The notes under the pieces are model-generated. The model worked only from the letters and a program-made list of their open reading frames with translations, did no database searches and was not told where the DNA came from. Shown here piece after piece: positions 3,145 through 23,307 of a DNA stretch of 64,000 nt. Both the position numbers and the translations under genes were made by a program. Each line of letters begins with the position of its first letter. Within the stretch, counting starts at the first letter, position 1. This DNA comes from Sneathiella sp. P13V-1 (lineage in GTDB: Bacteria > Pseudomonadota > Alphaproteobacteria > Sneathiellales > Sneathiellaceae): the NCBI RefSeq assembly GCF_015143595.1, contig NZ_WYEU01000001.1, positions 1,364,001 to 1,428,000 of the forward strand, written 5' to 3'.

Positions 3145-3221
3145 TGGTGACCCCGACAGGACTCGAACCTGTTGCCTCCAGATTAGGAATCTGGCGCTCT
3201 ATCCTGATGAGCTACGGGGCC
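3145..3221 (-). tRNA. tRNA-Arg (anticodon CCT)
   Basis: The minus strand folds into a full cloverleaf of 77 nt including an encoded CCA. The seven-pair acceptor stem is GGCCCCG/CGGGGTC with one G-U pair. The anticodon stem CCAGA/TCTGG encloses the loop TTCCTAA, giving anticodon CCT (reads AGG, arginine). The T arm is ACAGG-TTCGAGT-CCTGT. Its 3' end touches the stop codon of the PfkB kinase gene on the opposite strand. Confidence 0.95.
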
Positions 3222-3293: not shown

Positions 3294-4529
3294 TTAGTTA
3301 TCCCCGCGTCCAATAATCAGTGATGTGTTGATCCCACCAAAAGCGAAGTTGTTGCTCATGAAGTGGTTGATTTCAATGTCACGTGGACCGTCCTTGATAT
3401 GATCGAGGCCCGCGCAATTTTCATCAATGTCCGTTAGATTAGCGGTTGGGGGGACCCATCCGTCATGCATGGATTTAATGGCGAGCCAAAGTTCAATTGA
3501 TCCGCAGGCGCCGAGGGTATGACCGAAATAGCCTTTTAGGGTGTGAAAAGGAACTGCGCGATCAAAAAGGCCGTAAGTTGCCTGACACTCCGCCACGTCT
3601 CCTTGGGCGGTTGCGGTGCCATGTCCATTGATCAGGTCAATGTCGCTTTTGTCGATCCCACTGTCCTTCAAGGCAAGTTCCAAGGCGACCCGCATAGTGT
3701 CCGAGGAGGGTTGCGTAATGTGTTTTCCGTCAGAATTGGTGCCGAACCCAAGTATTTCTGCATGGATGGTCGCACCGCGGGCAATAGCGTGCTCCCTCTC
3801 TTCCAGAATGAGTGTTGCGCTTCCCTCTCCGATAACAAGGCCATCTCTTGCCGCATCATAGGGGCGGGGGGAAAGGTGAGGCTCATCATTTCGCTGACTG
3901 GTCGCAAACAGGGTGTCGAATACGGCGGCCATGGTCGGGCATAGCTCTTCCGCGCCGCCAGCAATCATGGCGTCCTGATGACCTGCCTTAATGGCTTCAT
4001 AGGCATAACCAACCCCCATGCTTCCTGATGTACAGGCAGAAGAGGTCGGGATGATCCGGCCCGTCAGGCCAAAATGCACACCGATATTTACAGGTGCTGT
4101 GTGGCTCATCATCTGGATGTAGCTGGTTGCAGTAAGGCCGCGCGCCTGCCCGGTTTCCATCAGTCGGGCGAAGGCTTTTACAGGTGCCGTGCTGCCAAAA
4201 GAAGACCCATAAGATGTGCCAATGCGACCAGATTGAAGGAAATCCTTGTCTTCCAGAAGACCCGCGTCTTCTAATGCTTTTTCGGTGGCGGCCACCGCCA
4301 TTCTGGAAACTGGCCCCATACTACGAAGGGCTTTCCGCGAGAAATGAGATGGCATTTTGAAATCTTCAACAGGACCCGCAAGGCGCGTACTCATATCCTC
4401 ATAGCGTTCCCAATCCGACATGTAGCGGATACCTGTCTCACCTTTTGACATGCGGGTACGGATATCATCCCAATTGTCCCCAAGGGAGGTGACACCAGAC
4501 ATGCCAGTAACAACGACGCGGCGGCTCAT
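3294..4529 (-). CDS. Beta-ketoacyl-ACP synthase, ApeR-like (FabF family)
   Basis: Condensing enzyme of 411 residues with the full FabF triad: Cys166 in TSSACTSGS, His303 in NGHGTATAQG and His337 in GYFGHTLGACGS. It should catalyse a Claisen condensation of an acyl thioester with malonyl-ACP. It is the last gene of the minus-strand aryl polyene operon, the position held (from memory) by apeR in the E. coli/Xenorhabdus clusters, where ApeR is thought to act at an early or alternative elongation step. Its start overlaps the stop of the ketoreductase gene by 4 bases (ATGA). Between its stop and the tRNA gene are 72 bases with only a weak AT-rich hairpin. Confidence 0.9.
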   Translation of the reverse strand: MSRRVVVTGMSGVTSLGDNWDDIRTRMSKGETGIRYMSDWERYEDMSTRLAGPVEDFKMPSHFSRKALRSMGPVSRMAVAATEKALEDAGLLEDKDFLQSGRIGTSYGSSFGSTAPVKAFARLMETGQARGLTATSYIQMMSHTAPVNIGVHFGLTGRIIPTSSACTSGSMGVGYAYEAIKAGHQDAMIAGGAEELCPTMAAVFDTLFATSQRNDEPHLSPRPYDAARDGLVIGEGSATLILEEREHAIARGATIHAEILGFGTNSDGKHITQPSSDTMRVALELALKDSGIDKSDIDLINGHGTATAQGDVAECQATYGLFDRAVPFHTLKGYFGHTLGACGSIELWLAIKSMHDGWVPPTANLTDIDENCAGLDHIKDGPRDIEINHFMSNNFAFGGINTSLIIGRGDN

Positions 4530-5251
4530 AGCATCCCTCCGTTCACTGAAATCACCTGTCGGGTGATGTAGGAGGCTTCCTCAGAACAAAGGAAGGCAAC
4601 AACACCAGCCACCTCTTCGGGAGAGCCGTATCGCTGCATTGGGATCTGATCTTTCACCATGTCCGGAAGATCCTTGGTCATTTCCGTTTCAATGACACCG
4701 GGTGCTACGCAATTGACGGTGATTTTCCGTTTGGCAAGCTCAATGGCAAGAGACTTGGCAGCCGCAATAATTCCCGCCTTTGTCGCGGCATAATTTGTTT
4801 GTCCCCGGTTGCCCGCAAGACCGGATACTGAGGACATAACCACAATTCGGCCAGGTGCCCGGCGGCGGATCATGGGCATGACAAGCGGTTTCAGGACGTT
4901 ATAGAACCCTCCCAAGTTGGCATCTATCACATCATCCCAGTCTTCATCTTCAAGGGCAGGAAACGCATTATCGCGAGTAATTGCGGCATTGAGAACCGTG
5001 CCATAGTAGGCGCCATGTTCTTTCACATCCTGTTCCAGTTTTTTCCGGCATTCATCACGGTTAGCAATGTCGAAGCTGATGATGCGGCCATCACTTCCGG
5101 CTGCACGCACAGCTTGCAGTGTCTCCTGAGCGCCCGCCTCATCCCGGCCATAATGAACGACAATTTGATAGCCAGCCTCTGCAAGTCGAATGGCAATGGC
5201 TCGCCCGATCCCTTTACTTGCACCTGTGACTAAAATGGTTTCCTGCTTCAT
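4526..5251 (-). CDS. 3-oxoacyl-ACP reductase, ApeQ-like (FabG family)
   Basis: Short-chain dehydrogenase of 241 residues. The NADP-binding motif is TGASKGIGRAIA near residue 9, and the catalytic Ser141, Tyr154 and Lys158 lie in MSSVSG and NYAATKAG. It should reduce the beta-keto group of the growing polyene chain on the carrier protein. It sits between the dehydratase gene (13-base gap) and the terminal ketosynthase (4-base overlap), the usual KS-DH-KR-KS order of aryl polyene clusters. Complete, ordinary length. Confidence 0.92.
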   Translation of the reverse strand: MKQETILVTGASKGIGRAIAIRLAEAGYQIVVHYGRDEAGAQETLQAVRAAGSDGRIISFDIANRDECRKKLEQDVKEHGAYYGTVLNAAITRDNAFPALEDEDWDDVIDANLGGFYNVLKPLVMPMIRRRAPGRIVVMSSVSGLAGNRGQTNYAATKAGIIAAAKSLAIELAKRKITVNCVAPGVIETEMTKDLPDMVKDQIPMQRYGSPEEVAGVVAFLCSEEASYITRQVISVNGGML

Positions 5252-5264
5252 TGTATTACTGCTT

Positions 5265-5747
5265 TTAATCGACTGTTTTAGTTGTTTGATCCGCTTGATG
5301 ATCTTGTGACAGCATTAGGCTGGGATCCGCGGGTTGATAGACGTTGATGCGACCATTTACGACGATTTTGTCATTGAGGGTAACCGTGCCATCGAAGACG
5401 GCCATTTCGCCATCATTGAAAGAGGTTTCGACTTTCACGACGGGTCGGCTGTCTAGTGGAAAATGGTCGCATTTGAGCTCAACTTTACGGCTTCCCAAAA
5501 GAAAGCCAGGTTGAACCTCTGTCCCGTTCTTTAGATCCTTCAGACCGTTAAAAGCGGCTATGGCCTGCGCGATATACTCAACGCCAATATATGCAGGCAC
5601 GCCATTGCCCTCACTGAAAAAGGGTGCGTCTTCTGTAATGATCACTTCTGCAGTCAGTCCTGTCTCCGTTGAAGAGACATAGCGATCCAGCAGGATCATA
5701 GGCATGTCATGCGGGAGGATATCGCCAATGGGCCCTTTAAAGCTCAT
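5265..5747 (-). CDS. 3-hydroxyacyl-ACP dehydratase, ApeP-like
   Basis: Hot-dog-fold protein of 160 residues. The N-terminal stretch ILPHDMPMILLDR and the helix segment PAYIGVEYIAQAIAAFNGLK are typical of the ApeP group of dehydratases related to FabZ, with His14 as the probable catalytic base. It would dehydrate the 3-hydroxyacyl intermediate to leave a conjugated double bond. The start is 1 base from the stop of the upstream ketosynthase gene. It is one of two dehydratase domains in this operon; the other is fused to the AMP ligase. Confidence 0.88.
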   Translation of the reverse strand: MSFKGPIGDILPHDMPMILLDRYVSSTETGLTAEVIITEDAPFFSEGNGVPAYIGVEYIAQAIAAFNGLKDLKNGTEVQPGFLLGSRKVELKCDHFPLDSRPVVKVETSFNDGEMAVFDGTVTLNDKIVVNGRINVYQPADPSLMLSQDHQADQTTKTVD

Positions 5748-5748
5748 A

Positions 5749-6942
5749 TCAAACTCCCTTTCCCATGATGATGCTCACATTGCTGCCGCCGAAAGCAAAA
5801 GAATTGCTCATCAAATAGACGGTGCCAGAAGCGGGGACCGTATCGCCTTTTTGCGCCAGATTTATGTCGGGGACATCCTCGTCCGTGCAACCGTCCCAAA
5901 GATGAGGCGGTAAAGAGACAGTATCCTCTGCATAGTGAAGGCAAAGCCAGAGAATGGCAGCTTCAACAGCCCCTGCAGCGCCGAGAGTATGCCCCGTCAT
6001 TGGTTTGGTGGAACTTACCGGGATTGGTTTTTCAAACACCCGCGCAATGGCCTTCGCTTCCATGGAATCGTTAAGCTCGGTCGCCGTGCCATGCATGTTG
6101 AGATAGCTGATATCTTCCGGGTTTAGGTTCGACAGCTCAAGTGCCTGACGCATTGCACGTTCCGCGCCTTCGCCATTAGGCTCAGGGGCGCTCACATGAT
6201 GGGCATCAGAACTTTCACCTGCACCAATAAAGGCAATGTCCGATTTTTCCTTTGTCATGACAAAAACCGCGATCCCTTCACCGATATTGGTGCCATTTCG
6301 GTTTGCGCTCAAAGGGTTGCAGATATCATCACTTAATGCCTGCAGGCTTCTAAAGCCACCAACTGTCATGCTGCATAAGGTGTCTGCGCCGCCCACGATA
6401 GCAGCGTCGCAAAAACCTGCATTTATCAAACGGGCCGCAGTGGAGAAGGCCTTACCACCAGAGGCACAGGCGGCAGATACCGAATATACAGGCCCTTTAA
6501 TCCCATATATTTCGGCAAGGAATAGAGAAGGAGATCCTATTTCCTGTTGCCCGAAATTATAATCTGCGGGGAAGGATCCGTGTTCATGGCGATATCGCAT
6601 CGCCTTTTCACTTTCTTCGATACCGGAATTGCTGGTGCCAATAATAACGGCAACACGAGAGGCGCCGTAGGTATCCACCGCTTTCTTAATTTCGTCATCT
6701 ATCTGCAGTGCAACCTGATACAGATATTGGTTGTTGCGAGAGTTTAAAGAGGTGGCAACAGACGGCAGATCCGTAGAACTTTCTTTGATCATGCCGACAG
6801 TTTCCATTTGGCCAGGCGTCCAGTGGTCGCTTCGGACCATGCCGGATTGGTCACCTGCTAAAAGAGCGTTGTATGTACTTTCCTTGTCTGCTCCTAGAGG
6901 GCTGATCATCCCCATCGCGCAGAGGTAAAGCGGTCCACTCAT
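5749..6942 (-). CDS. Beta-ketoacyl-ACP synthase, ApeO-like (FabF family)
   Basis: Second full ketosynthase, 397 residues, with Cys159 in SVSAACASGG, His284 in NMHGTATELN and His318 in MTGHTLGAAG. By order it corresponds to ApeO, the catalytic subunit that in characterised aryl polyene systems pairs with a chain-length-factor-like partner (ApeC). The best candidate for that partner here is the short ketosynthase-like protein at 17308-17994. The start overlaps the stop of the DUF3261 lipoprotein gene by 4 bases. Confidence 0.9.
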   Translation of the reverse strand: MSGPLYLCAMGMISPLGADKESTYNALLAGDQSGMVRSDHWTPGQMETVGMIKESSTDLPSVATSLNSRNNQYLYQVALQIDDEIKKAVDTYGASRVAVIIGTSNSGIEESEKAMRYRHEHGSFPADYNFGQQEIGSPSLFLAEIYGIKGPVYSVSAACASGGKAFSTAARLINAGFCDAAIVGGADTLCSMTVGGFRSLQALSDDICNPLSANRNGTNIGEGIAVFVMTKEKSDIAFIGAGESSDAHHVSAPEPNGEGAERAMRQALELSNLNPEDISYLNMHGTATELNDSMEAKAIARVFEKPIPVSSTKPMTGHTLGAAGAVEAAILWLCLHYAEDTVSLPPHLWDGCTDEDVPDINLAQKGDTVPASGTVYLMSNSFAFGGSNVSIIMGKGV

Positions 6943-7532
6943 TTGCCTCCTCCGGAAACGTTTGAAGAAATGAGAAACTGCACATTATGTATGCGGTTGA
7001 GAATTTCACTTTGTGAGGTCCAGGGATTTCCCCCTAAGCTACGGATTGTCATTATTGTCCCGTTCTTATTCTTCAGCATCCGCCCGCTATGAGTTTGTTC
7101 CAATTCTACATTAACGGGAAGTCCTTTTTTTACCTGCTCTACTGGCCAGAAAGCCAGAACAATTTGAGCAAGAATTAGTGAGCCATCAATTTCATCAGGG
7201 ATCTTGTCTGATTTGGAGACCTTCAGATTTGAGGACGTCCAATCTATGTCAAAGGCCCTGCCCCCTGTCACGTCGAGAAGAGCAATTTTTACTCTTTCAC
7301 GTTTTAGCTCCAAGATGGCGTTAAAATTGTGACGCTGTCCCCCTCTTGTGAGAGTTACCTGTTGCAACACAGTTTTGTCTTTTTGCGTCCAGACAGGATC
7401 AGGGAGCGTGAAAGGAAAGTCATGATCCAGATAGGTGACATGGCGAGTGTTTACTGTTGTGCTGCAGGACGCTAGCCATATCGCCATCAGCGGTATCAGT
7501 AGTACTCGTAAGGGTGAGGAGATCAATGTCAT
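6939..7532 (-). CDS. DUF3261-type outer-membrane lipoprotein
   Basis: Protein of 197 residues with a lipoprotein signal: hydrophobic segment, then the lipobox LASC with the acylated Cys at about residue 23. The remainder resembles small DUF3261 lipoproteins that recur in aryl polyene clusters. It is probably anchored in the outer membrane and may help receive or place the exported polyene lipid; that role is inferred from context. It overlaps the flavoprotein gene (4 bases) and the ketosynthase gene (4 bases). No enzymatic motif seen. Confidence 0.8.
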   Translation of the reverse strand: MTLISSPLRVLLIPLMAIWLASCSTTVNTRHVTYLDHDFPFTLPDPVWTQKDKTVLQQVTLTRGGQRHNFNAILELKRERVKIALLDVTGGRAFDIDWTSSNLKVSKSDKIPDEIDGSLILAQIVLAFWPVEQVKKGLPVNVELEQTHSGRMLKNKNGTIMTIRSLGGNPWTSQSEILNRIHNVQFLISSNVSGGGK

Positions 7533-8764
7533 GCGTACATTTTCTCCAACAGGCGAAGGATACGGGTTGGGTTTTGAACAAGGGGACTGTCCTCTGACCA
7601 GGCATAACCGCTTAAGATTGAGACCATCATGAGTTCAATATCGGTCTTCTCTTCAGGACGGTTTAAAATAATATCCTGCAATCCTCCTTCATACCAGGAT
7701 TGGACAAAAACCCTGAAAACATCAACGCCTTTCTTTAGCGGTTTGGAAAAGTCATTTTCCCAATCGGGGGACTGACCTTCAAGTTCTTTTAAGACAAGAG
7801 GCACCGCCAGTTCAGAGGATTGCAAGGCAATGGTGACACCGGAAGAGAAGATGGGATCTAGAAATTCCGCGGCATTTCCAAGAAGCGCGAAGCCTGGACC
7901 ATGCAGGCTTTTAACATCGCAAGAATACCCCTTTATTTTGCCAAGTGGGCGAGTTTGAGACGCGTTTTTCAAAAGTTCCCCAAGATGTGTTTCTTGAAGA
8001 TGACGCTTAAAAACTTCCTCATCTGGTAGATCTTCGTCATTTGAGTAGACAACACCTACGGAAGAGGTGCCATCGGAAAATGGAATGGTCCAATACCAGA
8101 CATCTTTTTTCTTCGGATGAACGGTGATGAGGATTTTATTACGGTCAAATTCCGGGTCTGTAATCTGATCTTCCATATGGGTGAAAAGAACAGTTCTCAT
8201 CGCCAGAGTAGAAGGCAACTCTAGATCTTCAAGTTTTGATAAGACCCTACCAAATCCGCTTGCATCCAGAACAAACCGCGAAGAGGTCACCATGGTGTCG
8301 CCGTCTTCTCCCACATGGGTGAGGTGACAGTCCCCCTTATTCAAATCAGAGCGGGTGACAGTACGGCCATATAAAATATCAGCCCCGGCTTTTTCAGCGT
8401 TATCCGCGAGAACCTTGTCAAATTCAGCTCTTTTTACCTGATAGGCAGTTCCCCAACCCGCGTCATACTTCTCCCGGAAATCGATATCGCGCTTTTCATC
8501 CCCCCGCTGAAATGCAGCGCCGTTTTTAAATTGAAAACCGGTCTCTATCACAGGCTGAAGAAGCCCCGCATTTTCCAGAAGGTTCAGGCAATGGGGAAGC
8601 AGGCTTTCACCAATACTGAAGCGCGGAAATGTCTCCCGCTCAAGAATAACGACAGATGCTCCCTGATCCCGAAGTTTCTTGGCGGCCAGTGCACCCGCAG
8701 GACCCGCGCCAATGATCGCCACATCATAAACAGTCTGATTTGAATTTGTTTTTCCTGTTTGCAT
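7529..8764 (-). CDS. FAD-dependent oxidoreductase, flavin-halogenase-like
   Basis: Flavoprotein of about 411 residues. The N-terminal Rossmann motif GAGPAGALAAKKL is followed by an acidic residue in VVILERE and by FSIGESLLPHC, as in the tryptophan-halogenase/geranylgeranyl-reductase superfamily. A WYWTIP stretch at the middle matches the W-x-W-x-I-P signature of flavin-dependent halogenases. Related enzymes occur in flexirubin, xanthomonadin and aryl polyene clusters and may modify the aryl head or a chain intermediate; reaction unproven. An upstream GTG at 8824 would add 20 residues but overlap the MMPL gene by 56 bases; the ATG at 8764 leaves a 4-base gap and begins just before the FAD motif, so I prefer it. 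Confidence 0.85.
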   Translation of the reverse strand: MQTGKTNSNQTVYDVAIIGAGPAGALAAKKLRDQGASVVILERETFPRFSIGESLLPHCLNLLENAGLLQPVIETGFQFKNGAAFQRGDEKRDIDFREKYDAGWGTAYQVKRAEFDKVLADNAEKAGADILYGRTVTRSDLNKGDCHLTHVGEDGDTMVTSSRFVLDASGFGRVLSKLEDLELPSTLAMRTVLFTHMEDQITDPEFDRNKILITVHPKKKDVWYWTIPFSDGTSSVGVVYSNDEDLPDEEVFKRHLQETHLGELLKNASQTRPLGKIKGYSCDVKSLHGPGFALLGNAAEFLDPIFSSGVTIALQSSELAVPLVLKELEGQSPDWENDFSKPLKKGVDVFRVFVQSWYEGGLQDIILNRPEEKTDIELMMVSILSGYAWSEDSPLVQNPTRILRLLEKMYA

Positions 8765-8768
8765 TTGA

Positions 8769-11018
8769 TTATTCTTTCTTGCTGGCAATCGCGAGTGGGG
8801 AGAGCCCCCAGGCGCAGACAACACCTATGACAATGGTTGATCCAATGGTTTGCAGAACCGGAATGGAGGAAAAAGACATTAATCCGAAGACGAGCACAGT
8901 GCTAAGTGCGGATAGTGTCACGGCTTTGTAGGCGCGGTCTCTGTCATCATCTTGTGACGCCATTTGAAAGAGCGCATAATCTGCTCCAAGCGCGAAAATG
9001 AGGAAGCCTGCGATGACAGAGAAGAAGGAGAGCCCTGGTGTCAAATAGGCAATTGCAAGCAAGGCAAGCAGTGTTGCAGCACTGGGGGCAACTAGCGCCT
9101 GAAGACCTTTTATGACACCAAATCGTATAATAAATATGAGATTGGCGAATATGATACCGGCGATTAAAGTTTGGGTGGCTTTCAGCCGCATCCGGGCCAT
9201 ATCTGATGTGTATTTTCGTGTCACGTCCAACTCTGTTGCCCAGGCGAATTTGCTCAAAAGCGGCGCGAGATATGCATCATTTGCTGAACCGGGAAGGATC
9301 ATCAGATGGGCTTGCTGATCGATTTCATTATGTTCAATTCTCAAACCCTGAATTTCCATCGGAAGCTGCCTTATCACCGCAGGGTCCAGTGACACAAAAG
9401 TCCGATCGGCTTCTAAATCTCCAATCATGGATAAGAGAGGTGCGGCCTCTTTTGTTGCCATAACCTCTTTTGTGAGGGAGGCTATTTCTTCTTGCCTTTT
9501 GAGCGAGGGCAGAAAGTCCGAAAGAGAAAGACTGACACGAAGCGATTGATCGCTTGCAATAAACAATTCAGCCTTTAGCTGTTCTTCTCTTTGTAGAATT
9601 TCTTCCGCAGAATTGCCCTGGATTAATACTATTCTGTTGCTGGAATTTGCTCCCAATTTGGAAATCTGTTGTTCCAGTTTATCAATTGCCTCAGTACTTA
9701 CACGCAGATTGCGAACACTGTCTGAAGAGGGGGCGTAGTTGAGCAACAGGAGTGCAGCAGAAAGAGCCGAAGCAAGACCCAAGGCAGGAAAAAGTGCAAT
9801 TGGTGTGAGAGTGATATGAAGCTTTCTGACACCGTTATGATCGCTGGAAGGGCTCTGTTTGGGATCAATAATCGATAAAATCGGCAGAAGGAAGAGAACA
9901 GTCAGCGCCGCCCCCACCACGCCAAAAGTGGAATAAACCGCAATTTGCTGCAGGAAAATCATATTACTGAAGAGCAGGGCGATAAAACCAATGATGGATG
10001 TGCCCGCGCCAAGGACCAAGCCAAGCCTGATACGCTCTGCCGTTACTGCCATGGGTTCGCTTAACCGCCGGGCAGCATAAAAATGTATGGCATAGTCCAC
10101 CACAACACCGATCAGACTGGATCCAAAGGCAACAGCGATAAGGTGCACTGTGTTGAATATCAGTAGGGTTGCGACCGCACCCGATAAAATGCCGCCAGTA
10201 ATAATCAGAAGGGCACCAGATATGACACGGGCTGACCGAAAAGCAAAAAGGAGCAGAAGGATAACGCCAACGGTTGCGCCTATTGACAGGAAAAGGGCTT
10301 CGGTTTTGGACTTCTCTGCAATTTGGTTCTCATAAAAGGGAGCGCCAGTTGCCACCAAAGAAAAGCCATCATGCTTCTTTGAAACGACGTTTAATACTTC
10401 TTTGAACTGCAGAAATGTTGCCTTTTTCGCATCTGGTGACAGGTCTTCTTGGAGCAATAGTGAAAGCTGAACATAATGTACTCCGTCCTCCCCCAGAAAA
10501 GAGGCGTTACCATTAGCCGCGAACATGTTGATCTGGGCAGTGGACAAGGCAAGTGGATCTTTTCTCAGTTGGTCAGCGGTTATTAGACTTCCCGGCAAAA
10601 ATAGCGATAGCAGTGTTCGCTGAATGAGGGAGGAGCCGTTGCCTGATTGCAGTTCTTTAAAGTCGTCCTCAGTGGCAATTAAACCTGCATTTTGCCGAAT
10701 AAAACGACTGAGGCGCGTAGCTTCTTCATCGCTTGCTTCCCTCACCGTCAGGTTGCTGAGAGTGTAGAGCTTTTCTTTCAGATGGGATAACCCAGAAATT
10801 AGTCGCGCTTCATCGGCATGGCCTGCAAATATACTGATTTGACGTCCGTTCTGAGCCTGAAGAGCCTCATAGGCAGAAACTTCAATTTCTTTCCGGTCCG
10901 AAGCTGGGAATAAAGCATTTATGTCAGCAGCGAAGCGGGTTTGCCCTGTCACAACAGACCAGATCGCGGCGGCGCTGAGCGCGAGCAGAATGCTTATGAT
11001 TATCCCCCTGATGATCAT
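8769..11018 (-). CDS. MMPL/RND-family lipid exporter, ApeM-like
   Basis: Inner-membrane transporter of about 749 residues built as two similar halves. Each half has one membrane helix, a large periplasmic domain and then a block of about five helices. The N-terminal helix is IIRGIIISILLALSAA; the second half starts near residue 405. RND-superfamily exporters of this kind move lipids or pigments using the proton gradient. With the LolA-like protein next to it and two lipoproteins it would form the export route for the aryl polyene lipid. The ATG at 11018 overlaps the LolA-like stop by one base (TGATG); a GTG one codon upstream (11021) is an alternative. Confidence 0.88.
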   Translation of the reverse strand: MIIRGIIISILLALSAAAIWSVVTGQTRFAADINALFPASDRKEIEVSAYEALQAQNGRQISIFAGHADEARLISGLSHLKEKLYTLSNLTVREASDEEATRLSRFIRQNAGLIATEDDFKELQSGNGSSLIQRTLLSLFLPGSLITADQLRKDPLALSTAQINMFAANGNASFLGEDGVHYVQLSLLLQEDLSPDAKKATFLQFKEVLNVVSKKHDGFSLVATGAPFYENQIAEKSKTEALFLSIGATVGVILLLLFAFRSARVISGALLIITGGILSGAVATLLIFNTVHLIAVAFGSSLIGVVVDYAIHFYAARRLSEPMAVTAERIRLGLVLGAGTSIIGFIALLFSNMIFLQQIAVYSTFGVVGAALTVLFLLPILSIIDPKQSPSSDHNGVRKLHITLTPIALFPALGLASALSAALLLLNYAPSSDSVRNLRVSTEAIDKLEQQISKLGANSSNRIVLIQGNSAEEILQREEQLKAELFIASDQSLRVSLSLSDFLPSLKRQEEIASLTKEVMATKEAAPLLSMIGDLEADRTFVSLDPAVIRQLPMEIQGLRIEHNEIDQQAHLMILPGSANDAYLAPLLSKFAWATELDVTRKYTSDMARMRLKATQTLIAGIIFANLIFIIRFGVIKGLQALVAPSAATLLALLAIAYLTPGLSFFSVIAGFLIFALGADYALFQMASQDDDRDRAYKAVTLSALSTVLVFGLMSFSSIPVLQTIGSTIVIGVVCAWGLSPLAIASKKE

Positions 11019-11596
11019 CACTGTTGTTTTTGAGCCTCATATTGAAATGCTTCCAAGGCTTCTGCCGTGGAGGAGGGGGAGATAACCTGATTGGAAAAAG
11101 CGATGCGATCGTAATCTCCTCTGGCTTTTTTGATGGTCAACAACTCTGTTGTCTCAGATCCTTCCACGATGATTTCCGTGACATATTCTTTGAGTCTGGA
11201 GTGTTTTGGGAGGAGCGTTGCTTTCCATTTGTTATCGACTTTACGGACGTCGACGGTGAAGTTTTTCGATAAACCTTCCCAGTCATTTGCCATTGCAGGG
11301 TAAATCATCTCTGAAATCACTTTGCCAACCCCGCCGGAACTGGATTGGGTGACTGCGCCATTTGCAATTTGGGTGATGCCATGTTCGTTCATAATTAATC
11401 GGCTTGGGAAAGGGGAGGTAACGACCCAGGCAAGACCCTTTTCCGGTATCAGGTGAAAATCACCAGAAGTTCTGAAAGGGGCTTCAAACCCCGCAAGGTA
11501 GCGGTCCTGATTAAACTGGCCAGATATGCTTTCCGCATTGGCTGAGCATGTGAAAAATAAAGCGACGACCGCTCCAAGGTAACCCCTTAGTTTCAT
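11018..11596 (-). CDS. LolA-like periplasmic lipid carrier, ApeL-like
   Basis: Secreted protein of 192 residues with a signal peptide (hydrophobic VVALFFTCSANA, cleavage near residue 21). The rest resembles LolA-type carriers: repeated amphipathic beta strands and a GDFHLIPEKGLAWVVTSPFP region. It probably ferries the polyene lipid across the periplasm from the MMPL exporter, by analogy with the LolA/ApeL proteins of related clusters. It overlaps the thioesterase gene by 4 bases and the exporter by one base. Confidence 0.85.
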   Translation of the reverse strand: MKLRGYLGAVVALFFTCSANAESISGQFNQDRYLAGFEAPFRTSGDFHLIPEKGLAWVVTSPFPSRLIMNEHGITQIANGAVTQSSSGGVGKVISEMIYPAMANDWEGLSKNFTVDVRKVDNKWKATLLPKHSRLKEYVTEIIVEGSETTELLTIKKARGDYDRIAFSNQVISPSSTAEALEAFQYEAQKQQ

Positions 11597-12015: not shown

Positions 12016-12970
12016 TTGTGAGTTCCTTTGGTGGACTCCAGAAACGGAAGAAGTTGAACCACTGATCAGGATATTGAATGGCGAGGTCTTCCAGCCATTT
12101 TGCGTAGGATGCCGCCCATTTTTCGGCGCTGACCTGGCGATTGCGCCGCTCCAATACCAAGCGATCTGTGAGTTTCTGCCATTTAACGGAAAACCGCGCC
12201 CCTTCTCTGAGGCAAGCCACCAGGTAAACCGGTTTCTCCAGAATGTGCGCAAGCACATAGGGTCCAAGTGCGAAGGGGGCTTTCTCCCCCAAAAAAGGGG
12301 CCCAAATTATGTTCCCCCGCCCCAAGACAGGGGGGCGATCCGCGGCGATAACAACCCAGCCACCTTCATCGACGCTGGTTTTTAAGTATGCCGCCACATC
12401 AGGTGTGATCTCAGTAACCTCAATCAATCTTAACTGGGAAGTGGGATTAAATCGTGTCATGAGGCGATTAAAACGCTGGGCATGTTTGGTGTGAACAAGG
12501 ACGGTAACCGGGCGCTGATTGTTTAAGGACTTGAAAGCCCGCATCAGCTCCATATTCCCCAAGTGGGAGACAAACAACACGGCTCCTTTTTCTTCTGGAT
12601 CCAGCTCAAACAGACTTTCAAGTCCCCCTTCAATGGATATTTTTTCTCTTGTGATATCACCGCGCCATGCCGCCAGTTTATCCATCGCGGCTGTTCCAAA
12701 TTGAAGATAATTGGCAAATCCGGTCCAGAAGCCGGGCATGTTATTGCCGCTCCGCTTGGAGACTTTGGTTCTAAATTCTCTTACTGCTTCGCGCCCCTCA
12801 GAAGTCATAAAATAGAAGCTCAGAAGGACCGGCAGCATGAAAAGCCGACAGATGTGCCGCCCGGCAATTTTGTAGACGATAGCAAGAAAATTCAGCCCCC
12901 AAAAAGCGCCAACCTCTTCCACATCTGCCCAATGAGAATTTTTTGAATTATTGGTCGATTGGGGGGTCAT
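12008..12970 (-). CDS. LpxL/HtrB-like acyltransferase
   Basis: Membrane-associated acyltransferase of 320 residues related to lipid A lauroyl/myristoyl transferases. The H-x4-E motif is seen in SHLGNMELMRA, and an N-terminal hydrophobic segment lies near residue 40. In E. coli-type aryl polyene clusters this activity is, from memory, part of one bifunctional protein with the glycosyltransferase (ApeJ); here the two are separate, overlapping genes (4 bases). It probably attaches the polyenoyl chain or a second acyl chain to the glycolipid anchor. Confidence 0.87.
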   Translation of the reverse strand: MTPQSTNNSKNSHWADVEEVGAFWGLNFLAIVYKIAGRHICRLFMLPVLLSFYFMTSEGREAVREFRTKVSKRSGNNMPGFWTGFANYLQFGTAAMDKLAAWRGDITREKISIEGGLESLFELDPEEKGAVLFVSHLGNMELMRAFKSLNNQRPVTVLVHTKHAQRFNRLMTRFNPTSQLRLIEVTEITPDVAAYLKTSVDEGGWVVIAADRPPVLGRGNIIWAPFLGEKAPFALGPYVLAHILEKPVYLVACLREGARFSVKWQKLTDRLVLERRNRQVSAEKWAASYAKWLEDLAIQYPDQWFNFFRFWSPPKELTNE

Positions 12971-13707
12971 GCTTTCGCTCCCAATCTCAAGGTGATCAGG
13001 CGAAGTAACATGCCAAAGACAAGACGAGTATGCATGCGCGTAATCAGAATATTGTCTTTTACCACATCAAAGTTCGATGTGTTGTCTTCGGGGTAGATCA
13101 CCTTGGACGGGATCTCGATGACAGAAATGCCCCGCCAGAAAAGTCGCACCATGACCGACGTGTCAAAATCCATCCTTTGGCCGACTTTTTCCTCAGAAAT
13201 AACGTCCAGAGTTGGGGCAATGGGGTAGATGCGGAATCCACACATGCTATCTGTGATCTTGAAGGATAATGTTTCGACCCAAACGCAGACATGTGTAAAC
13301 CAACGCCCTATTTTGCGCCCCAGTGGCATACTGCTGTCATATACGGGTTTTGCCGTAACAAGGCAGTTGGGGTTGTCTCGGGCGCTGGAGATTAAGTTTG
13401 GCAGATCCTTTAGGTCGTGCTGACCGTCCGCGTCAATTTGCAGTGCATGAGAATGCCCCGCCGCTTTTGCATGCTGTAATCCAGTTAAAAACGCGGCCCC
13501 TTTTCCGCGATTAGCTTCATGCCGAAGAACAGTTACCTGTGCGTTTTCCAGGCCGATCTGATCAACGGTATCAGCGGTTATCTTATCTGAGCCATCATCC
13601 ACAATAATAACAGGAAGGCCCGCGTTTAAGACCTCTTGTACGACCTTATTCAATACCTTGTAGTGATTGAGTGTTGGGATGATGGCGCAGAGGCTGAAAC
13701 TACTCAT
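12967..13707 (-). CDS. GT2-family glycosyltransferase
   Basis: Glycosyltransferase family 2 protein of 246 residues, dolichol-phosphate-mannose-synthase-like. It shows IIVDDGSDK near residue 35 for nucleotide-sugar binding and the D-x-D motif in QIDADGQHDLKDLP near residue 92. It presumably adds the sugar of the aryl polyene lipid anchor at the cytoplasmic face of the inner membrane. Overlaps both neighbours by 4 bases. Substrate not determinable. Confidence 0.87.
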   Translation of the reverse strand: MSSFSLCAIIPTLNHYKVLNKVVQEVLNAGLPVIIVDDGSDKITADTVDQIGLENAQVTVLRHEANRGKGAAFLTGLQHAKAAGHSHALQIDADGQHDLKDLPNLISSARDNPNCLVTAKPVYDSSMPLGRKIGRWFTHVCVWVETLSFKITDSMCGFRIYPIAPTLDVISEEKVGQRMDFDTSVMVRLFWRGISVIEIPSKVIYPEDNTSNFDVVKDNILITRMHTRLVFGMLLRLITLRLGAKA

Positions 13708-15467
13708 GAAGCCTCCGGGTAAGACAGAAGGCCGGAGCTGTGCTCTTCGGAGGACCCATCAGAGCGTCTGCTTTGAAAGTGGAAAGAGAACTTGGTTTCA
13801 GATTTTCTTGTTAAAAGAAACTGGACTTCAGTTTCCGGAAAAATCAGTTTTTTGAACTTCAATTTATCTATTTTTGTAGGGTTACCCTTGATCGCGAAAT
13901 GCTTTGCGATTTGTTCCGCTGCCCAATGGATCTGGACGACACCGGGTAAGATGGGTGTATCCGTGAAGTGTCCTTGGAAATAATCCAGATCTGCAGGCAA
14001 ATTCAGCACGATTTCAATTTCATTTTCTGAAACTTGCTGTGAGATTTCTTCGAAACGAGTGTTGGTGAATTTTGATCTTGGTGCAGGCATGGCGCTCTCA
14101 TTTGCCTCGAATATTTTCTCAATGTCGGATGGCATGATTTTACTTTGCTGATTTCGTGGGATGCGTCCGACAAATCGCCAGCGTTTCGGCACAGACACCG
14201 CGTCTTCAAACTGCTTGAGATGGTCTTCAAAGACGCGCCCTGTCCGAAAACGTCCATTTCGATATAGAAAATCCTGGCCCTCAGTTGAAATCGTGGCAAC
14301 CGCCGCAAGTGACCTTTTACCAGAGCTCAACAGTTGGACGTGAACATCTTCAATCCACGGGTGTTCGCTTAAGATCCCTTCCAGCCTTGGAAGGGACACA
14401 CGCTTTCCTTCCACTTTGACAATTCTGTCCGCCCGTCCCAAGAGTGTAAATTCATCTTCAGTGTGAAGTTTGGCGATGTCGCCTGTTTTAAAGTCACCCT
14501 CTCCATCTGGCAGTAGGAGAGTGTTGACAATAAGGCAGCCTTGCTCATCCAGACGCAACCCCACCCCATCCAGCTTGGACCAGTTTTCATTTTCTCCAGA
14601 ATTGAATCTGTTGGCGATAGCTCCTGTTTCCGTGCTGCCATAAATCTCGAGTATCGGCGCATTAAGGAGTTTGGTAGCTTTTGCAGCATTTTCGGGCGGT
14701 AGAAAGCCACCAGCTGACAGCATGAGTTTTGGATTAATATTTAAGTTGCCGGTCTCCAGCGGGGACAGGCGACAAAGATGTGTTGGGCTGGTAACCAAAA
14801 TAAATGGCCGTTCTGCAGATGTAATTTCGTCAATCTCATCCCAGTTTTTGGCGGTATCTGCATGAAAAGGACGGCCTGAACATAGTGGCCACAACAGGCG
14901 GAACATGAGACCATAAATATGCTGATGGCTGGCAGTGGCGTGAACTTCTGCGCCCGCCACATTCGCACCGTGGCTTTGTTCCCAATAGGCGATCTCACGA
15001 TCTTTTTGATAGATGTATTTTTTGACTTCCTTTGGCTTTCCCGTAGAGCCTGAGGTGTAGAAAGTCATCGTGTAATTCTGAGGCACAGGTTCAGCTTGCG
15101 GCGAGACTTCACCATCATTCTGGAGAATATCATCTGACAACCGAATATGGTTGATATCAGGAGGGGACGTTTCATCGGTCAACAAGATATCAAAGCTGTC
15201 TGCAATTTCGCGAAGCGCGCCTTCTTGATTTGTTGCAGGATATACCGAAGGAGCATTGCCTTTAATCGCTGCCAAAATTGCAACAGCTTCAAGGGCAGAA
15301 GAGGTGCAGAAAATGCAAACTCTCTTTCCGGCAATTTGCTCTGAAAGTGTTTCAGCCGCTTTGAAAAGTTGGCGTCTGGATGTGATGCGATTGTTACGAT
15401 GAATGACCGCAGGTGTGCCATCTAATTCGCTGCACCAGATGTTGCTGAGAAGAGAAGAATGTTTCAT
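13704..15467 (-). CDS. AMP-dependent aryl-acid ligase fused to ApeI-like dehydratase
   Basis: Protein of 587 residues with two domains. Residues 1 to about 460 are an adenylate-forming ligase: P-loop TFYTSGSTGKPKEVKK near 135-150, EIYGSTETGAIA, TGDIAKL and LLGRADRIVKVEGKRV. Residues about 470-587 are a FabA/FabZ/ApeI hot-dog dehydratase with FQGHFTDTPILPGVVQ and its catalytic-type His at about 500. In characterised clusters the ligase (ApeH) activates 4-hydroxybenzoate and loads it on a carrier protein, while ApeI dehydrates the chain; here both are one polypeptide. No ammonia lyase is present in the operon, so a chorismate-derived hydroxybenzoate starter is the simplest inference. Confidence 0.9.
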   Translation of the reverse strand: MKHSSLLSNIWCSELDGTPAVIHRNNRITSRRQLFKAAETLSEQIAGKRVCIFCTSSALEAVAILAAIKGNAPSVYPATNQEGALREIADSFDILLTDETSPPDINHIRLSDDILQNDGEVSPQAEPVPQNYTMTFYTSGSTGKPKEVKKYIYQKDREIAYWEQSHGANVAGAEVHATASHQHIYGLMFRLLWPLCSGRPFHADTAKNWDEIDEITSAERPFILVTSPTHLCRLSPLETGNLNINPKLMLSAGGFLPPENAAKATKLLNAPILEIYGSTETGAIANRFNSGENENWSKLDGVGLRLDEQGCLIVNTLLLPDGEGDFKTGDIAKLHTEDEFTLLGRADRIVKVEGKRVSLPRLEGILSEHPWIEDVHVQLLSSGKRSLAAVATISTEGQDFLYRNGRFRTGRVFEDHLKQFEDAVSVPKRWRFVGRIPRNQQSKIMPSDIEKIFEANESAMPAPRSKFTNTRFEEISQQVSENEIEIVLNLPADLDYFQGHFTDTPILPGVVQIHWAAEQIAKHFAIKGNPTKIDKLKFKKLIFPETEVQFLLTRKSETKFSFHFQSRRSDGSSEEHSSGLLSYPEAS

Positions 15468-16048
15468 TCTGCCCCACTTTCATTTCGGCGAATTCTGAGA
15501 CGAAATGCATATTCCCCTGCAAATAGCAGCCCTGTCAGGCAGTATGAAATGAATCCATTATACACCGTCCATTGCTCCAACGTGCCATATGTCGCTGTCC
15601 AAAGCGCAATAGAGGCATTGATCGCGAAAAAAAGAATCCAGACGATCGTCACTTTTCTGGTGTATTGCACGCCACTTGGGGCAAGGTCCGGTTCTTTGAG
15701 GCGGGCTATCATCTCGATGATGGTCGGGGGGTTAAGTATTGACCAGAAAAACGCAAGGGCGAGCAAACAGCTGATAGCAACCGGATAGAATTTAAAGGAA
15801 ACGGCCCCCTTGAATAGAACACCCCCAAGAAGAAGCAGGAAAGCGATTACAAATGGCCAAAAAAGTCGGTTGTCTGATCGCATCGCGGATTTCATAAAAA
15901 CAAGACGCAATGCAAGCACCACAAGAATACCAATAATGAAAATGCCTGGGGGAAGGGATGTGAGACCGAAATACACAAGAAACGGGTAGCTCAGTCCCAA
16001 GATTATTCCGGCCCCTCCCAATAAGGCTTTAGCCTTTGGTGACAACAT
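15464..16048 (-). CDS. Integral membrane protein of aryl polyene clusters, ApeG-like (COG4648)
   Basis: Very hydrophobic protein of about 194 residues with five or six predicted membrane segments (for example IFIIGILVVLALRLVFM and VIAFLLLLGGVLF). It resembles the COG4648 membrane proteins found between the acyl carrier protein and ligase genes of aryl polyene clusters; function unknown. The ATG at 16048 overlaps the carrier-protein gene by 20 bases. A farther ATG at 16072 would overlap it by 44 bases. Neither has a strong ribosome-binding site, so the exact start is uncertain. Confidence 0.8.
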   Translation of the reverse strand: MLSPKAKALLGGAGIILGLSYPFLVYFGLTSLPPGIFIIGILVVLALRLVFMKSAMRSDNRLFWPFVIAFLLLLGGVLFKGAVSFKFYPVAISCLLALAFFWSILNPPTIIEMIARLKEPDLAPSGVQYTRKVTIVWILFFAINASIALWTATYGTLEQWTVYNGFISYCLTGLLFAGEYAFRLRIRRNESGAE

Positions 16049-16277
16049 TATGTATCTGGTCGACGACGTCATTTACCGTGCGGACTGATTTGAAATCGTC
16101 AGCATGTACTTTTTTACCGATAAGATCCTGAAAATTGACGATCAAATCAACCGCATCAATACTGTCCAGGTCCAGATCTTCTGCAAGAAGAGCATCCGGA
16201 GTGATCAATGCTTCGTCAACTTCAAAAAGTTCTACTAGAAATTCATTGAGTTTGGCTTCGATCTCATCGCGGGTCAT
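16029..16277 (-). CDS. Acyl carrier protein, ApeF-like
   Basis: Small acidic protein of 82 residues with the phosphopantetheine site DLDLDSIDAVDLI, Ser39 being the attachment residue. It should carry intermediates of the aryl polyene synthase. It overlaps the other carrier-protein gene by 4 bases (ATGA). The two carriers differ clearly in sequence, consistent with separate tasks such as starter loading and chain elongation. Confidence 0.93.
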   Translation of the reverse strand: MTRDEIEAKLNEFLVELFEVDEALITPDALLAEDLDLDSIDAVDLIVNFQDLIGKKVHADDFKSVRTVNDVVDQIHNVVTKG

Positions 16278-16546
16278 GCGCTTTCTCCCTGCGCCTTCAT
16301 TTCAGTAATGAAGTTTGCAAGCGTGTTCACATTCGCAAAATGTTCCGCTAGATCTTCTTTCTTGTTTTCAATCTTCACACCATATTTCTTCTGAAGAGCT
16401 ACTCCAAGTTCAAGTGCGTCAATTGAATCAAGACCAAGGCCTTCATCAAACAGGGCTTCGTTCTCGTCAATATCTGCGGCACTGATATCTTCCAGCTCAA
16501 GGGCTTTGATAATAAGCTCTTTGATTTCTTGTATGAGGTTATCCAT
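16274..16546 (-). CDS. Acyl carrier protein, ApeE-like
   Basis: Acyl carrier protein of 90 residues. The modification site is GLGLDSIDALELG with Ser41. By order it corresponds to ApeE, which in characterised systems accepts the aromatic starter from the ligase. Its start overlaps the end of the lysophospholipid-type acyltransferase gene by 8 bases. It needs a phosphopantetheinyl transferase; a candidate is encoded divergently at 18510. Confidence 0.93.
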   Translation of the reverse strand: MDNLIQEIKELIIKALELEDISAADIDENEALFDEGLGLDSIDALELGVALQKKYGVKIENKKEDLAEHFANVNTLANFITEMKAQGESA

Positions 16547-17315
16547 TTACTATTTTCTCCTCCAGCAATTCTTTGATTGCTGACGTCATTCGACGTGTGT
16601 TGAGAGAGTGTGTCTCTCCCTTGTTAAACAGGTCTGATGCCTCCAGTGGCTCAGTGAATTTTATTTTAAACGCCAATTTTGTCGGCGGAATGCGATACCA
16701 GGGTTCACCCTTTGCCAGCGTTGTGTGATTGCAGTGAAGGATAACAGGCATAATCGGCGCGTCACTTTCAAGAACGACATTTGCAACACCACGGTGCAGT
16801 TTTCCAAGAATTTCATTGGGACGGGTGCGCGTTCCTTCAGGGAAAATGATGAGATTTTCCCCTCGATCCAAGGCTGATTTACAATCAGAAATCAGCTTTT
16901 CCGGGTCCCGATCATTCTTCACATAATTTGCAGCCCTCATGACACCGCCGAGGAAGAAGTTATTCCATAGTTCATGCTTCACAATGCACTGCGCTTTATC
17001 CATTTGCGCCATCAGGATAACGGTATCCAGCAATGAAGGGTGATTGGCTATGATGACCGTCCCTTTTCGCCCGTTCAGAATATGGTTGTCTGTAACTTCA
17101 ACACTGATGACACCCAGAAATTCCAGTAGGAAGATATAGGCCTTAAAGGATTTATGAATTACCTTTTGGATGATTTCTGCTCTTCGAACCGGATTTTGAT
17201 AGAAGAGTTTTACAAAAGGGAAAACCGCAAGGGCAATAATAAGGCCGCCGATACCAAAAATCGCAAAGGCAATTCCTGTTCCGACTAGGCGCCACAACCA
17301 GTTGATCTTAGCCAT
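16539..17315 (-). CDS. PlsC-like 1-acylglycerol-3-phosphate acyltransferase, ApeD-like
   Basis: Membrane-bound acyltransferase of 258 residues. An N-terminal membrane segment is followed by ANHPSLLDTVIL (the H-x4-D motif, near residue 90) and FPEGTRTRP (substrate-binding block). It likely acylates a glycerol-type lipid, possibly the anchor of the polyene. The ATG at 17315 starts right before the family-like sequence and overlaps the upstream gene by 8 bases; an ATG at 17354 would add 13 residues lying inside the upstream gene. Confidence 0.88.
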   Translation of the reverse strand: MAKINWLWRLVGTGIAFAIFGIGGLIIALAVFPFVKLFYQNPVRRAEIIQKVIHKSFKAYIFLLEFLGVISVEVTDNHILNGRKGTVIIANHPSLLDTVILMAQMDKAQCIVKHELWNNFFLGGVMRAANYVKNDRDPEKLISDCKSALDRGENLIIFPEGTRTRPNEILGKLHRGVANVVLESDAPIMPVILHCNHTTLAKGEPWYRIPPTKLAFKIKFTEPLEASDLFNKGETHSLNTRRMTSAIKELLEEKIVNG

Positions 17316-17994
17316 GAGCCCTCTCCAAATTCCAATTGAAATGCTGTGCTTCAATTACCGCTTTTTCTGCAGAGCCTTCTAAAAAAGCCTTAAGGTGTTC
17401 AAACTGCCTTTGTAGATTGCAAGCTGTTGAGTTTGCTTTTGGCTCTAAAGATGCTTTAACTTCAAGATGCCCTTCAGCTTGCGGCTTCTTTTGTAGAAGG
17501 ATTGCGCAGACGCCGGTGTTCTTTTCCTTATCTTCAAATTCAGCAAATACTTCGGGCAGCGGTATGTCGACATATACCAAAAGAACGGGTTTATCCGGGA
17601 AGGTGTCAAGAAGTGAAAATGCCTCTGTCAGCCCCATGGCAAAGGTGTCCGCGCCCGCCGCGATGACGCTTTGCATTTCTTTCAGCTTCCATGCAATGGA
17701 TAATACGCCGGGTACGGCATTGTGGACTGAAAGACTGAAATTCATAGGGGAAAGTGCTTCCCCTTTGCAGATTTCTTCCAGTATCTGAAGTGACCTTTTT
17801 TCATCTCCATAGCGCGAAGCGAAGACAATGAGCGGACTGTTCGCTGTTTTGTCTTTCATCAGGCAGCCAGCGAGTTGGCCAAAAACCCCCAGTCGCCGTC
17901 GAGCTGAAGCGGGGAGAGCTTTTGTGTCCAAAGTTTCTAGTGACTGTTCGTTTGCGGGCGCAATCATGCCCCAATCAGATACACATACACGCAT
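17308..17994 (-). CDS. Short ketosynthase-like protein, ApeC-like (possible chain-length factor)
   Basis: Protein of 228 residues resembling only the N-terminal half of a beta-ketoacyl synthase (for example the IAAGADTFAMGLTEAF stretch that parallels the AGGAE/VGGAD region of real ketosynthases). At the place of the active-site cysteine it reads NFSLSVHNAVPGVL, so Cys is absent, and the two C-terminal histidine motifs are missing because the protein is half length. It may be the non-catalytic partner of the ApeO-like ketosynthase, as ApeC is in related clusters. Partnership is inferred from gene order, not shown. Confidence 0.8.
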   Translation of the reverse strand: MRVCVSDWGMIAPANEQSLETLDTKALPASARRRLGVFGQLAGCLMKDKTANSPLIVFASRYGDEKRSLQILEEICKGEALSPMNFSLSVHNAVPGVLSIAWKLKEMQSVIAAGADTFAMGLTEAFSLLDTFPDKPVLLVYVDIPLPEVFAEFEDKEKNTGVCAILLQKKPQAEGHLEVKASLEPKANSTACNLQRQFEHLKAFLEGSAEKAVIEAQHFNWNLERAHG

Positions 17995-18006
17995 ATTGTG
18001 GCTCTT

Positions 18007-18432
18007 TTACTTGGCCTTTTCTACAGCCAACCCGAGTTTTGTCACCAAATCTCTTTCAAGCAGTTCAACCCATCTGTTGTAACGGTGATGAATAATTCCA
18101 TTGCTTGCTTTTAGGTTGTAACTATCAAGATATGAGATTGAGAATTTGGTTTCTGTGTAATTTAAATTAACGCGCGCGTTGTGTTTTGTCGTGCCAACTT
18201 TGCCGATCATATGGCCCGGTTTCACATCTTCAAAGATCCAGCCGCGATTGGCCCCGATCATTTTAATCTCATCTTTTACGGTGCTAAGAGGTAAAACTGC
18301 AGACGTTGCAAAGGATTGATTGTCGACATTATAGATTGGTTTTGTAACACAGGCAGCAAGAGTGCTGATTACCACTACAGATACTGCGAGTCGAATAGAC
18401 AAATTCTTTTTGCTTACGATGCTACTTATCAT
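18007..18432 (-). CDS. Small lipoprotein of unknown function, first gene of the aryl polyene operon
   Basis: Protein of 141 residues with a lipoprotein signal: hydrophobic LAVSVVVISTLAAC with the lipobox cysteine near residue 28. The mature part contains IGANRGWIFEDVKPG and a C-terminal charged helix; I do not recognise a family with known function. It is the first minus-strand gene of the operon (12 bases before the ketosynthase-like gene) and faces the divergent phosphopantetheinyl transferase gene across 77 bases. The region is visibly more A+T rich than the housekeeping genes. Confidence 0.75.
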   Translation of the reverse strand: MISSIVSKKNLSIRLAVSVVVISTLAACVTKPIYNVDNQSFATSAVLPLSTVKDEIKMIGANRGWIFEDVKPGHMIGKVGTTKHNARVNLNYTETKFSISYLDSYNLKASNGIIHHRYNRWVELLERDLVTKLGLAVEKAK

Positions 18433-18509
18433 ATTATTCCCCCCGAACTGAAAGCCAGCGTACTAATTCAATTTGTCTACATCATCTGATTGGAATTTCA
18501 TACTCTAAA
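18433..18509. promoter_or_regulatory. Divergent intergenic region, presumed aryl polyene operon promoter
   Basis: These 77 bases separate the first gene of the minus-strand operon from the plus-strand phosphopantetheinyl transferase gene, so promoters for both should lie here or just inside the genes. The stretch is A+T rich; I cannot identify convincing -35/-10 pairs or an operator by eye. Confidence 0.45.
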
Positions 18510-19097
18510 ATGAATAATTTTCCTGTTTTATTTTTGATGAATGTGGAAAGCGAAATTCCCATTTCGGTTCAGGGAATTTACGTTTCTGATGCGGACATTG
18601 AGTACTGCTCAAAGTATAAAAATGAACAGCGGCAAACTCAATCGATACTTGTCAGAAAATTGGTCCGAGAAGGTTTGTTTCAGGCAACTGGCCTTGGGCA
18701 TGATTGCTGGGAGATTAAAATCGGTGACAATGGAGGCAGATATGCCCAATCCAGTGACGGTAAGATTTTGCAGCTCAGTTTTTCTCACAGTTCGGCGCAT
18801 TACGCTGTTGCAATTCACAGTGACGCTGTAGGGGTTGATGTGGAAGAAATCAAAATTGGCCGCCCCTGGGAGAAAATGCAAACCTATTTTGAGAGGCCTG
18901 CAGGACTTCCACCCTATAAGACACAACTGGAATTCTTGAAGGGTTGGACGGCTTACGAGGCGGGTTTGAAGTATAGGAGTGCCTCAAATGACCCTGTTCT
19001 TTTTCATCATGTCTATCCTTCTGATACTGCAGTCGTCTGCCTTGCGGTGAGGGAGAGGACGAAGAACGTCCCAGCGACAATAGTAATCGTAAAATAG
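18510..19097 (+). CDS. Sfp-type 4'-phosphopantetheinyl transferase-like protein
   Basis: Protein of 195 residues related to Sfp/AcpT enzymes. The substrate segment LSFSHSSAHYAVAI and the Mg-binding GVDVEEI (Asp and Glu, near residue 110) are present. The second signature, usually W-x-x-K-E-A, reads GWTAYEAGLKY: the metal-site Glu is kept but Lys is replaced by Tyr. It would attach phosphopantetheine from CoA to the serine of the two aryl polyene carrier proteins. It is transcribed divergently from that operon. The start lacks a clear ribosome-binding site; an ATG at 18537 is the alternative. Confidence 0.75.
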   Translation: MNNFPVLFLMNVESEIPISVQGIYVSDADIEYCSKYKNEQRQTQSILVRKLVREGLFQATGLGHDCWEIKIGDNGGRYAQSSDGKILQLSFSHSSAHYAVAIHSDAVGVDVEEIKIGRPWEKMQTYFERPAGLPPYKTQLEFLKGWTAYEAGLKYRSASNDPVLFHHVYPSDTAVVCLAVRERTKNVPATIVIVK

Positions 19098-23305: not shown

Positions 23306-23307
23306 GA

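Follow-up and report, generated by a model that had tools for sequence, protein, structure and literature searches.

A predicted aryl polyene lipid gene cluster of the ape family in Sneathiella sp. P13V-1

Genes at the locus

We analysed a 64,000-nucleotide stretch of the Sneathiella sp. P13V-1 genome (contig NZ_WYEU01000001.1, positions 1,364,001 to 1,428,000; the whole stretch is called the window here), and in it a block of 18 tightly packed minus-strand genes running from 18432 to 3294. Judged from its genes, this block very probably belongs to the ape family of aryl polyene lipid clusters. An earlier note on this DNA had described 18 minus-strand genes in a defined order, and this was borne out, since all 18 frames are open and stand in the order claimed. 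The same note had extended the cluster from 3294 to 19097. The 18 genes stop at 18432, however, and the rest is a separate divergent plus-strand gene (18510-19097) that had not been listed.

Neighbouring ape genes are spaced from +13 to -8 bases, with a 4-base overlap the commonest. The outliers, on the starts given in the open reading frame (ORF) list, are C/D (-47) and F/G (-44). The earlier note had given overlaps of 1-20 bases, a range that does not cover these two pairs. The flavoprotein start was set at 8764 (the ORF list gives 8824), and 12015, read from the sequence, is the most likely start of the thioesterase (ApeK-like). Pfam and NCBIfam profiles supported the earlier labels for 16 of the 18 proteins, while the first lipoprotein and the ApeG-like membrane protein had no informative match in these libraries. 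The features are as follows (percentages are identities to E. coli ape proteins).

18510..19097, plus: probable divergent phosphopantetheinyl transferase (PPTase); GVDVE and WTAYEAGLK motifs; profile matches below cut-off
18007..18432, minus: ApeA-like lipoprotein, lipobox LAAC; 40% to ApeA
17308..17994, minus: ApeC-like chain-length factor (half ketosynthase); PF13723 154 bits; 6qsp_B, 7f28_A; 37% to ApeC over 126 columns
16539..17354, minus: ApeD-like PlsC acyltransferase; PF01553; 35% to ApeD; HPSLLD motif
16274..16546, minus: ApeE-like acyl carrier protein (ACP); NF006617 above cut-off; 51% to ApeE; DSI motif
16029..16277, minus: ApeF-like ACP; NF003757 above cut-off; 49% to ApeF; DSI motif
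15464..16072, minus: ApeG-like membrane protein; 41% to ApeG over 125 columns; no Pfam match
13704..15467, minus: fused ApeH (aryl-ACP ligase) and ApeI (dehydratase half); AMP-binding and PF22818 (ApeI-like) above cut-off; 6qsr_A 30 bits
12967..13707, minus: GT2 glycosyltransferase, the N-terminal half of ApeJ; 50% to ApeJ residues 4-241; PF00535
12008..12970, minus: LpxL-type acyltransferase, the C-terminal half of ApeJ; 34% to ApeJ residues 246-553; PF03279
11593..12015, minus: ApeK-like hot-dog thioesterase; 45% to ApeK; 4HBT
11018..11596, minus: ApeL-like LolA carrier; PF03548 above cut-off; 24% to ApeL
8769..11021, minus: ApeM-like MMPL/RND exporter; PF03176; 26% to ApeM over 791 columns
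7529..8764, minus: flavoprotein of the flavin-dependent halogenase superfamily; PF04820 92 bits; 3nix 301 bits, halogenases at most 140 bits
6939..7532, minus: ApeN-like DUF3261 lipoprotein (LolB-like); PF11659; 25% to ApeN
5749..6942, minus: ApeO-like ketosynthase; NF006618 above cut-off; 6qsp_A 311 bits; 40% to ApeO
5265..5747, minus: ApeP-like dehydratase half; PF22817 above cut-off; 6qsr_B 60 bits
4526..5251, minus: ApeQ-like ketoreductase; TIGR01831 and FabG model NF004200 both above cut-off; 61% to ApeQ
3294..4529, minus: ApeR-like ketosynthase; NF006587 above cut-off; 4ewg, 7f27; 55% to ApeR
3145..3221, minus: tRNA-Arg(CCT) bordering the ape block (ARAGORN)

Homology to characterised ape systems

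The order of the genes had been likened to that of the E. coli ape genes, and a synteny comparison agreed with this. By BLASTP, 17 of the 18 window proteins pair in order with ApeA and ApeC to ApeR of E. coli CFT073, at identities from 24% (LolA) to 61% (ApeQ). Likewise, 17 of the 18 genes of the E. coli cluster (c1186-c1204; PMC8253772) have a counterpart in the window, with the order kept. The window differs from E. coli in having no ApeB, a fused H-I and a split J, and it adds the divergent PPTase-like gene and the flavoprotein, which lies between ApeM and ApeN and has no E. coli ape counterpart. ApeB gave only chance-level matches (12-13 residues) in a search covering 19 proteins of the window. 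The absence of a methyltransferase from the cluster proteins, as noted earlier, therefore stands, and the enzyme expected of a methylated, E. coli-type aryl polyene was not found among these 19.

The individual enzymes match in the same way. The ketosynthase and its half-size chain-length factor (ApeO and ApeC) matched 6qsp_A (311 bits) and 6qsp_B (68.5 bits), and both also matched 7f28. The two dehydratase halves, ApeI and ApeP, were recognised by PF22818 and PF22817 and by 6qsr_A and 6qsr_B, and are predicted to pair. We take 6qsp and 6qsr to be the ketosynthase-chain-length factor and dehydratase pairs of Xenorhabdus, and 7f27 and 7f28 to be Acinetobacter enzymes. The ketoreductase ApeQ and the second ketosynthase ApeR were found at 61% and 55% identity to E. 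coli, ApeR matching 7f27 and 4ewg, the latter named as an ApeR homologue (PMC8358021). An aryl-ACP ligase (its substrate being predicted from sequence) and two ACPs were seen with profiles and E. coli matches, as were, with Pfam, the anchor and export genes (D, J, L, M and N).

All sequence motifs that we looked for in the cluster proteins were present. The ApeI histidine (GHF) and the ApeP glutamate (VEYIAQ) align with their E. coli counterparts, which fits a heterodimer with a composite single site (PMC8041823). The ape gene order is also common to the loci of relatives. Together, the ordered pairing with E. coli, the ApeI-like and ApeP-like models above cut-off and the 6qsp and 6qsr chain matches uphold the aryl polyene identity that had been claimed. 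The sequence evidence thus gives good support to a complete, ordinary member of a widespread known family, with a yellow membrane pigment as its predicted product.

The ligase-dehydratase fusion and the split ApeJ

The earlier note had singled out two altered gene fusions. Both are present, but neither sets the cluster apart. In the fused protein (13704..15467), residues 47-453 correspond to E. coli ApeH and residues 471-578 to ApeI (BLASTP). In Acinetobacter baumannii, ApeI is likewise joined to the C-terminal end of ApeH, with ApeP as its partner (PMC8041823, PMC8358021), and the protein acts as synthetase and dehydratase, the ApeI/ApeP pair having one active site (PMC8041823). The ligase part has been named ApeH-Nt (PMC8358021). 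The fusion was not mentioned in the titles and abstract openings that our literature searches gave, and a statement of it was found only in the text of PMC8041823.

A survey of fused proteins, which had been suggested as a check, showed that they are not rare. ApeI-like matches above cut-off occurred in 76 of 398 sampled genomes of the phylum, and 39 of these 76 (the window's included) sit in open frames of 555-774 amino acids (counted by hand; frame length stands in for fusion here). H and I were fused in 60 of 80 named loci, separate in nine and without a call in 11; this sample is biased, since the query alignment was built from fused proteins, and the feature calls have gaps where ORFs were called on truncated stretches. 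For the choice of loci only, the class was also searched with the fused protein, which matched 30 of 385 genomes at E<=1e-10, several of them weakly and in the ligase part alone. Being published for Acinetobacter (PMC8041823) and common in the sample, the fusion was rejected as a novelty.

Within the genus, 14 of 24 genomes had a match to the fused ligase. Besides the window, two genus loci (L047, L048) carry the fusion without stops, while H and I are separate genes in the other 11. In eight of these 11, the two lie in the same frame, 3 or 12 bases apart, so that only a stop codon plus a few bases divide the two states; in some congeners the junction differs by no more than a stop in frame and a gap of 3 bases.

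ApeJ was split into GT2 and LpxL-type proteins in 24 of the 80 named loci, fused in 36 and without a call in 20. Fused H-I and split J occur together in 19 (e.g. Microbulbifer, Porticoccus and Collimonas). At this frequency, and with glycosyltransferase and acyltransferase encoded separately in Azoarcus as well (PMC3949708), the split too was rejected as a novelty.

Phylogeny and the empty site

Four genes were concatenated for a tree of 99 of 102 loci, three having too few genes, and a quick method with SH-aLRT (Shimodaira-Hasegawa-like approximate likelihood ratio test) support and no bootstrap was used. The window's closest partners were two congeners, G749 and G745 (support 100); Thalassospira and the genome G040 joined next (99). 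The other 11 genus loci formed a separate clade beside G112. The program flagged the composition of many rows, the window's among them, as odd, and L064, and L072 with L123, had long branches. By this tree, one genus holds two ape lineages. This fits horizontal exchange, or may alternatively reflect unequal loss of an old duplicate. In G745 (L048), ApeR lies in two frames, ApeP was found by tblastn only and ApeM has no start, whether through decay or assembly errors.

The nearest relatives are six Thalassospira loci (L062/L073, L067-L069 and L071, two of them apparently one genome) and G040 (L061). As in the window, H and I are fused in these, and the flavoprotein is present wherever the fetched stretch covers its place; the divergent PPTase-like gene is common to the window, L061 and L067. 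Unlike the window, all of them have a fused J, and in L062/L073, L067 and L068 an ammonia lyase gene stands between J and K. As J is split only in the window and its two close congeners within this group, the split is probably derived in their clade. The fewest changes on the tree were seven for H-I, three for J and six for the ammonia lyase.

The sister species G757 (ABC permease 93% and thiolase 95% identical) has the order PfkB, tRNA-Arg(CCT), chemoreceptor, porin, thiolase (L166), without ape genes. In the window, the ape block and the PPTase-like gene lie exactly between the tRNA-Arg(CCT) and the chemoreceptor gene, which are about 200 bases apart in G757, and no fused-ligase match was found anywhere in the G757 genome (92% complete). 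The comparison of the two loci indicates that the ape block came or went at this place as one discrete unit. The intergenic DNA has diverged, which blurs the exact insertion junction, and the PfkB regions of G761, G041, G749 and G745 have a different order, so that either gain or loss would fit. The 5' end of the tRNA faces the block, which is not the usual arrangement for an integrase.

Immediately to the right of the block, at 22100-24777, a thiolase-like gene (NF004810 above cut-off) overlaps an HMG-CoA-synthase-like gene (named by eye), and the pair is kept in the sister species. Elsewhere in the sample, the ape genes of L066 (G300) fall into two blocks, G, GT2, L and M being set off from the others; between the blocks lies the gene of a 558-amino-acid protein with a weak Sulfatase match (below cut-off). 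Ape-like clusters were also seen on contigs labelled as Elusimicrobia, Verrucomicrobia and Myxococcota metagenome-assembled genomes (L088, L118, L145); the cluster of L145, and that of an unassigned proteobacterial one (L111), are rearranged.

Source of the aryl starter

We searched the host genome (completeness 100, nine contigs; profile threshold E 0.001) and observed no match to PF00221 (ammonia lyase), PF04345 (UbiC), TIGR04444 (XanB2-type) or PF01947 (Rv2949c-like). UbiA was found at 377 bits, above cut-off. The earlier note had counted a missing ammonia lyase among the differences. There is indeed none in the cluster or the genome, and with it the enzyme expected of a lyase-primed polyene (flexirubin-like or lyase-bearing ape) is absent, but the E. 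coli cluster also has none. PF00221 occurs in 20 of the 24 genus genomes (the host is among the other four), and none of the 13 other genus loci fetched has a lyase inside the ape cluster. Among the 80 named loci, 67 have a lyase in the ape cluster (51 of 56 among loci showing both J and K), and two of these lyases were confirmed as PF00221.

With no PF00221 in the genome, tyrosine-derived coumarate from such a lyase is an unlikely starter here. A chorismate-derived head, as had been proposed, is plausible but unproven, since none of three families known to make hydroxybenzoate from chorismate was found. TIGR04444 can detect XanB2-type proteins, as three of four Lysobacteraceae genomes tested matched it (176-217 bits, all below the cut-off of 325) and none of nine others did. 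As UbiA is present, all four families are missing and UbiC is rare across the class (4 of 372 genomes sampled), we tentatively suggest that the starter, perhaps together with the 4-hydroxybenzoate of ubiquinone, might come from an enzyme outside these families, though we hold this to be less probable than its opposite.

Alternative readings

Some observations weigh against the aryl polyene assignment or parts of it. The four starter-forming families are missing from the genome, and the ketoreductase also passes the general FabG model NF004200. The protein of the adjoining gene scored below the library cut-offs (ACPS 13.7 bits, AusB 34.7 bits) and had no match in the PDB search, and a promoter scan near the ApeA/PPTase intergenic stretch gave two sites against 1.0 (standard deviation 0.9) in shuffled sequence. 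From its motifs and its position, divergent at the ApeA end of the cluster and the same in two congeners, this gene probably encodes a phosphopantetheinyl transferase.

The FabG match, with a ketosynthase, dehydratase and ACPs from fatty-acid-like families, could point to an ordinary or duplicated fatty acid synthase locus. Assignment of the ketosynthases to the ordinary fatty-acid type had been named beforehand as a possible refutation; the ketosynthase models NF006618 and NF006587 scored above cut-off, while the fabF model TIGR03150 scored below its own. The chain-length factor, the ApeI/ApeP models, the ligase, the exporters and the ordered ape homology contradict such a locus as well. The one short-chain dehydrogenase/reductase present matches ApeQ, and none of the 18 proteins showed a malonyl transferase domain. 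We therefore rejected this reading, to which we give a negligible chance. A decayed, non-functional cluster would be in keeping with the absence of the block from the sister species, which marks it as dispensable, but as all 18 frames are open and the motifs are present, decay is highly improbable.

The remaining alternatives concern the product. The Azoarcus arcuflavin cluster (PMC3949708) shares with the window separate glycosyltransferase and acyltransferase genes, a halogenase-like gene, LolA, a ligase and dehydratases. It differs in being spread over several loci and in having a XanB2-type ArcB and a dialkylresorcinol pathway. Genes of the latter, which would be expected of a flexirubin cluster, were not seen among the 19 described here (a genome-wide search was not made). 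From the flavoprotein and the separate glycosyltransferase and acyltransferase genes, as in Azoarcus, the product could be xanthomonadin proper, with 3-hydroxybenzoate from a XanB2-type chorismatase as starter. We rejected this, as the TIGR04444 search found no such enzyme in the host genome while the model matched Lysobacteraceae, and the tree places the cluster with Thalassospira; its probability is slight. A halogenated, xanthomonadin-like aryl polyene, in which the ring would be halogenated by the flavoprotein and the ape chemistry otherwise unchanged, has more in its favour. The flavoprotein matches PF04820 (Trp_halogenase), shares the FKNGAAF lysine and WxWxIP with the halogenases 8zop, 3e1t, 7fco and 3i3l (printed alignments), and its FLDPIFSSG aligns with variants in halogenase chains. 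Halogenase genes are reported in xanthomonadin, Azoarcus (PMC3949708) and alphaproteobacterial (Acetobacteraceae; there a probable halogenase, PMC8776678) polyene clusters. However, the flavoprotein/dehydrogenase 3nix is its best PDB relative and far closer (301 bits) than any halogenase chain (at most 140 bits), and it too has both the lysine and WxWxIP. We thus consider ring modification by the flavoprotein possible, and halogenation a rather doubtful form of it.

Proposed pathway

In relatives, ApeH loads 4-hydroxybenzoate, ApeO-ApeC elongates with ApeR, and ApeI/ApeP dehydrates; a glycolipid anchor and an export route are proposals in the same papers (PMC8253772, PMC8358021, PMC8041823). 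By analogy, ApeH would load 4-hydroxybenzoate onto an ACP here, ApeO-ApeC, helped by ApeR, would add malonyl units and ApeQ would reduce the keto group. The single-active-site ApeI/ApeP heterodimer, its ApeI half forming the C-terminal end of the ligase protein, would then dehydrate to give the conjugated polyene. ApeK may edit or release the chain, ApeD and the two ApeJ halves may attach it to a glycolipid anchor, and the MMPL, LolA-like and LolB-like proteins may carry the product to the outer membrane. The PPTase-like neighbour may activate the ACPs, and the flavoprotein may modify the ring or the polyene. The aryl head is expected to be unmethylated.

Significance

As a gene cluster, this is one more member of the ape family, and its value is comparative, lying in a genus with two ape lineages and in a sister genome with the same flanks minus the block. 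As the host has none of the four starter-forming families tested, the pigment may be usable to find the alphaproteobacterial route to 4-hydroxybenzoate. If the starter does come from an enzyme outside these families, the cluster would provide a visible and dispensable pigment readout for an alphaproteobacterial 4-hydroxybenzoate synthase.

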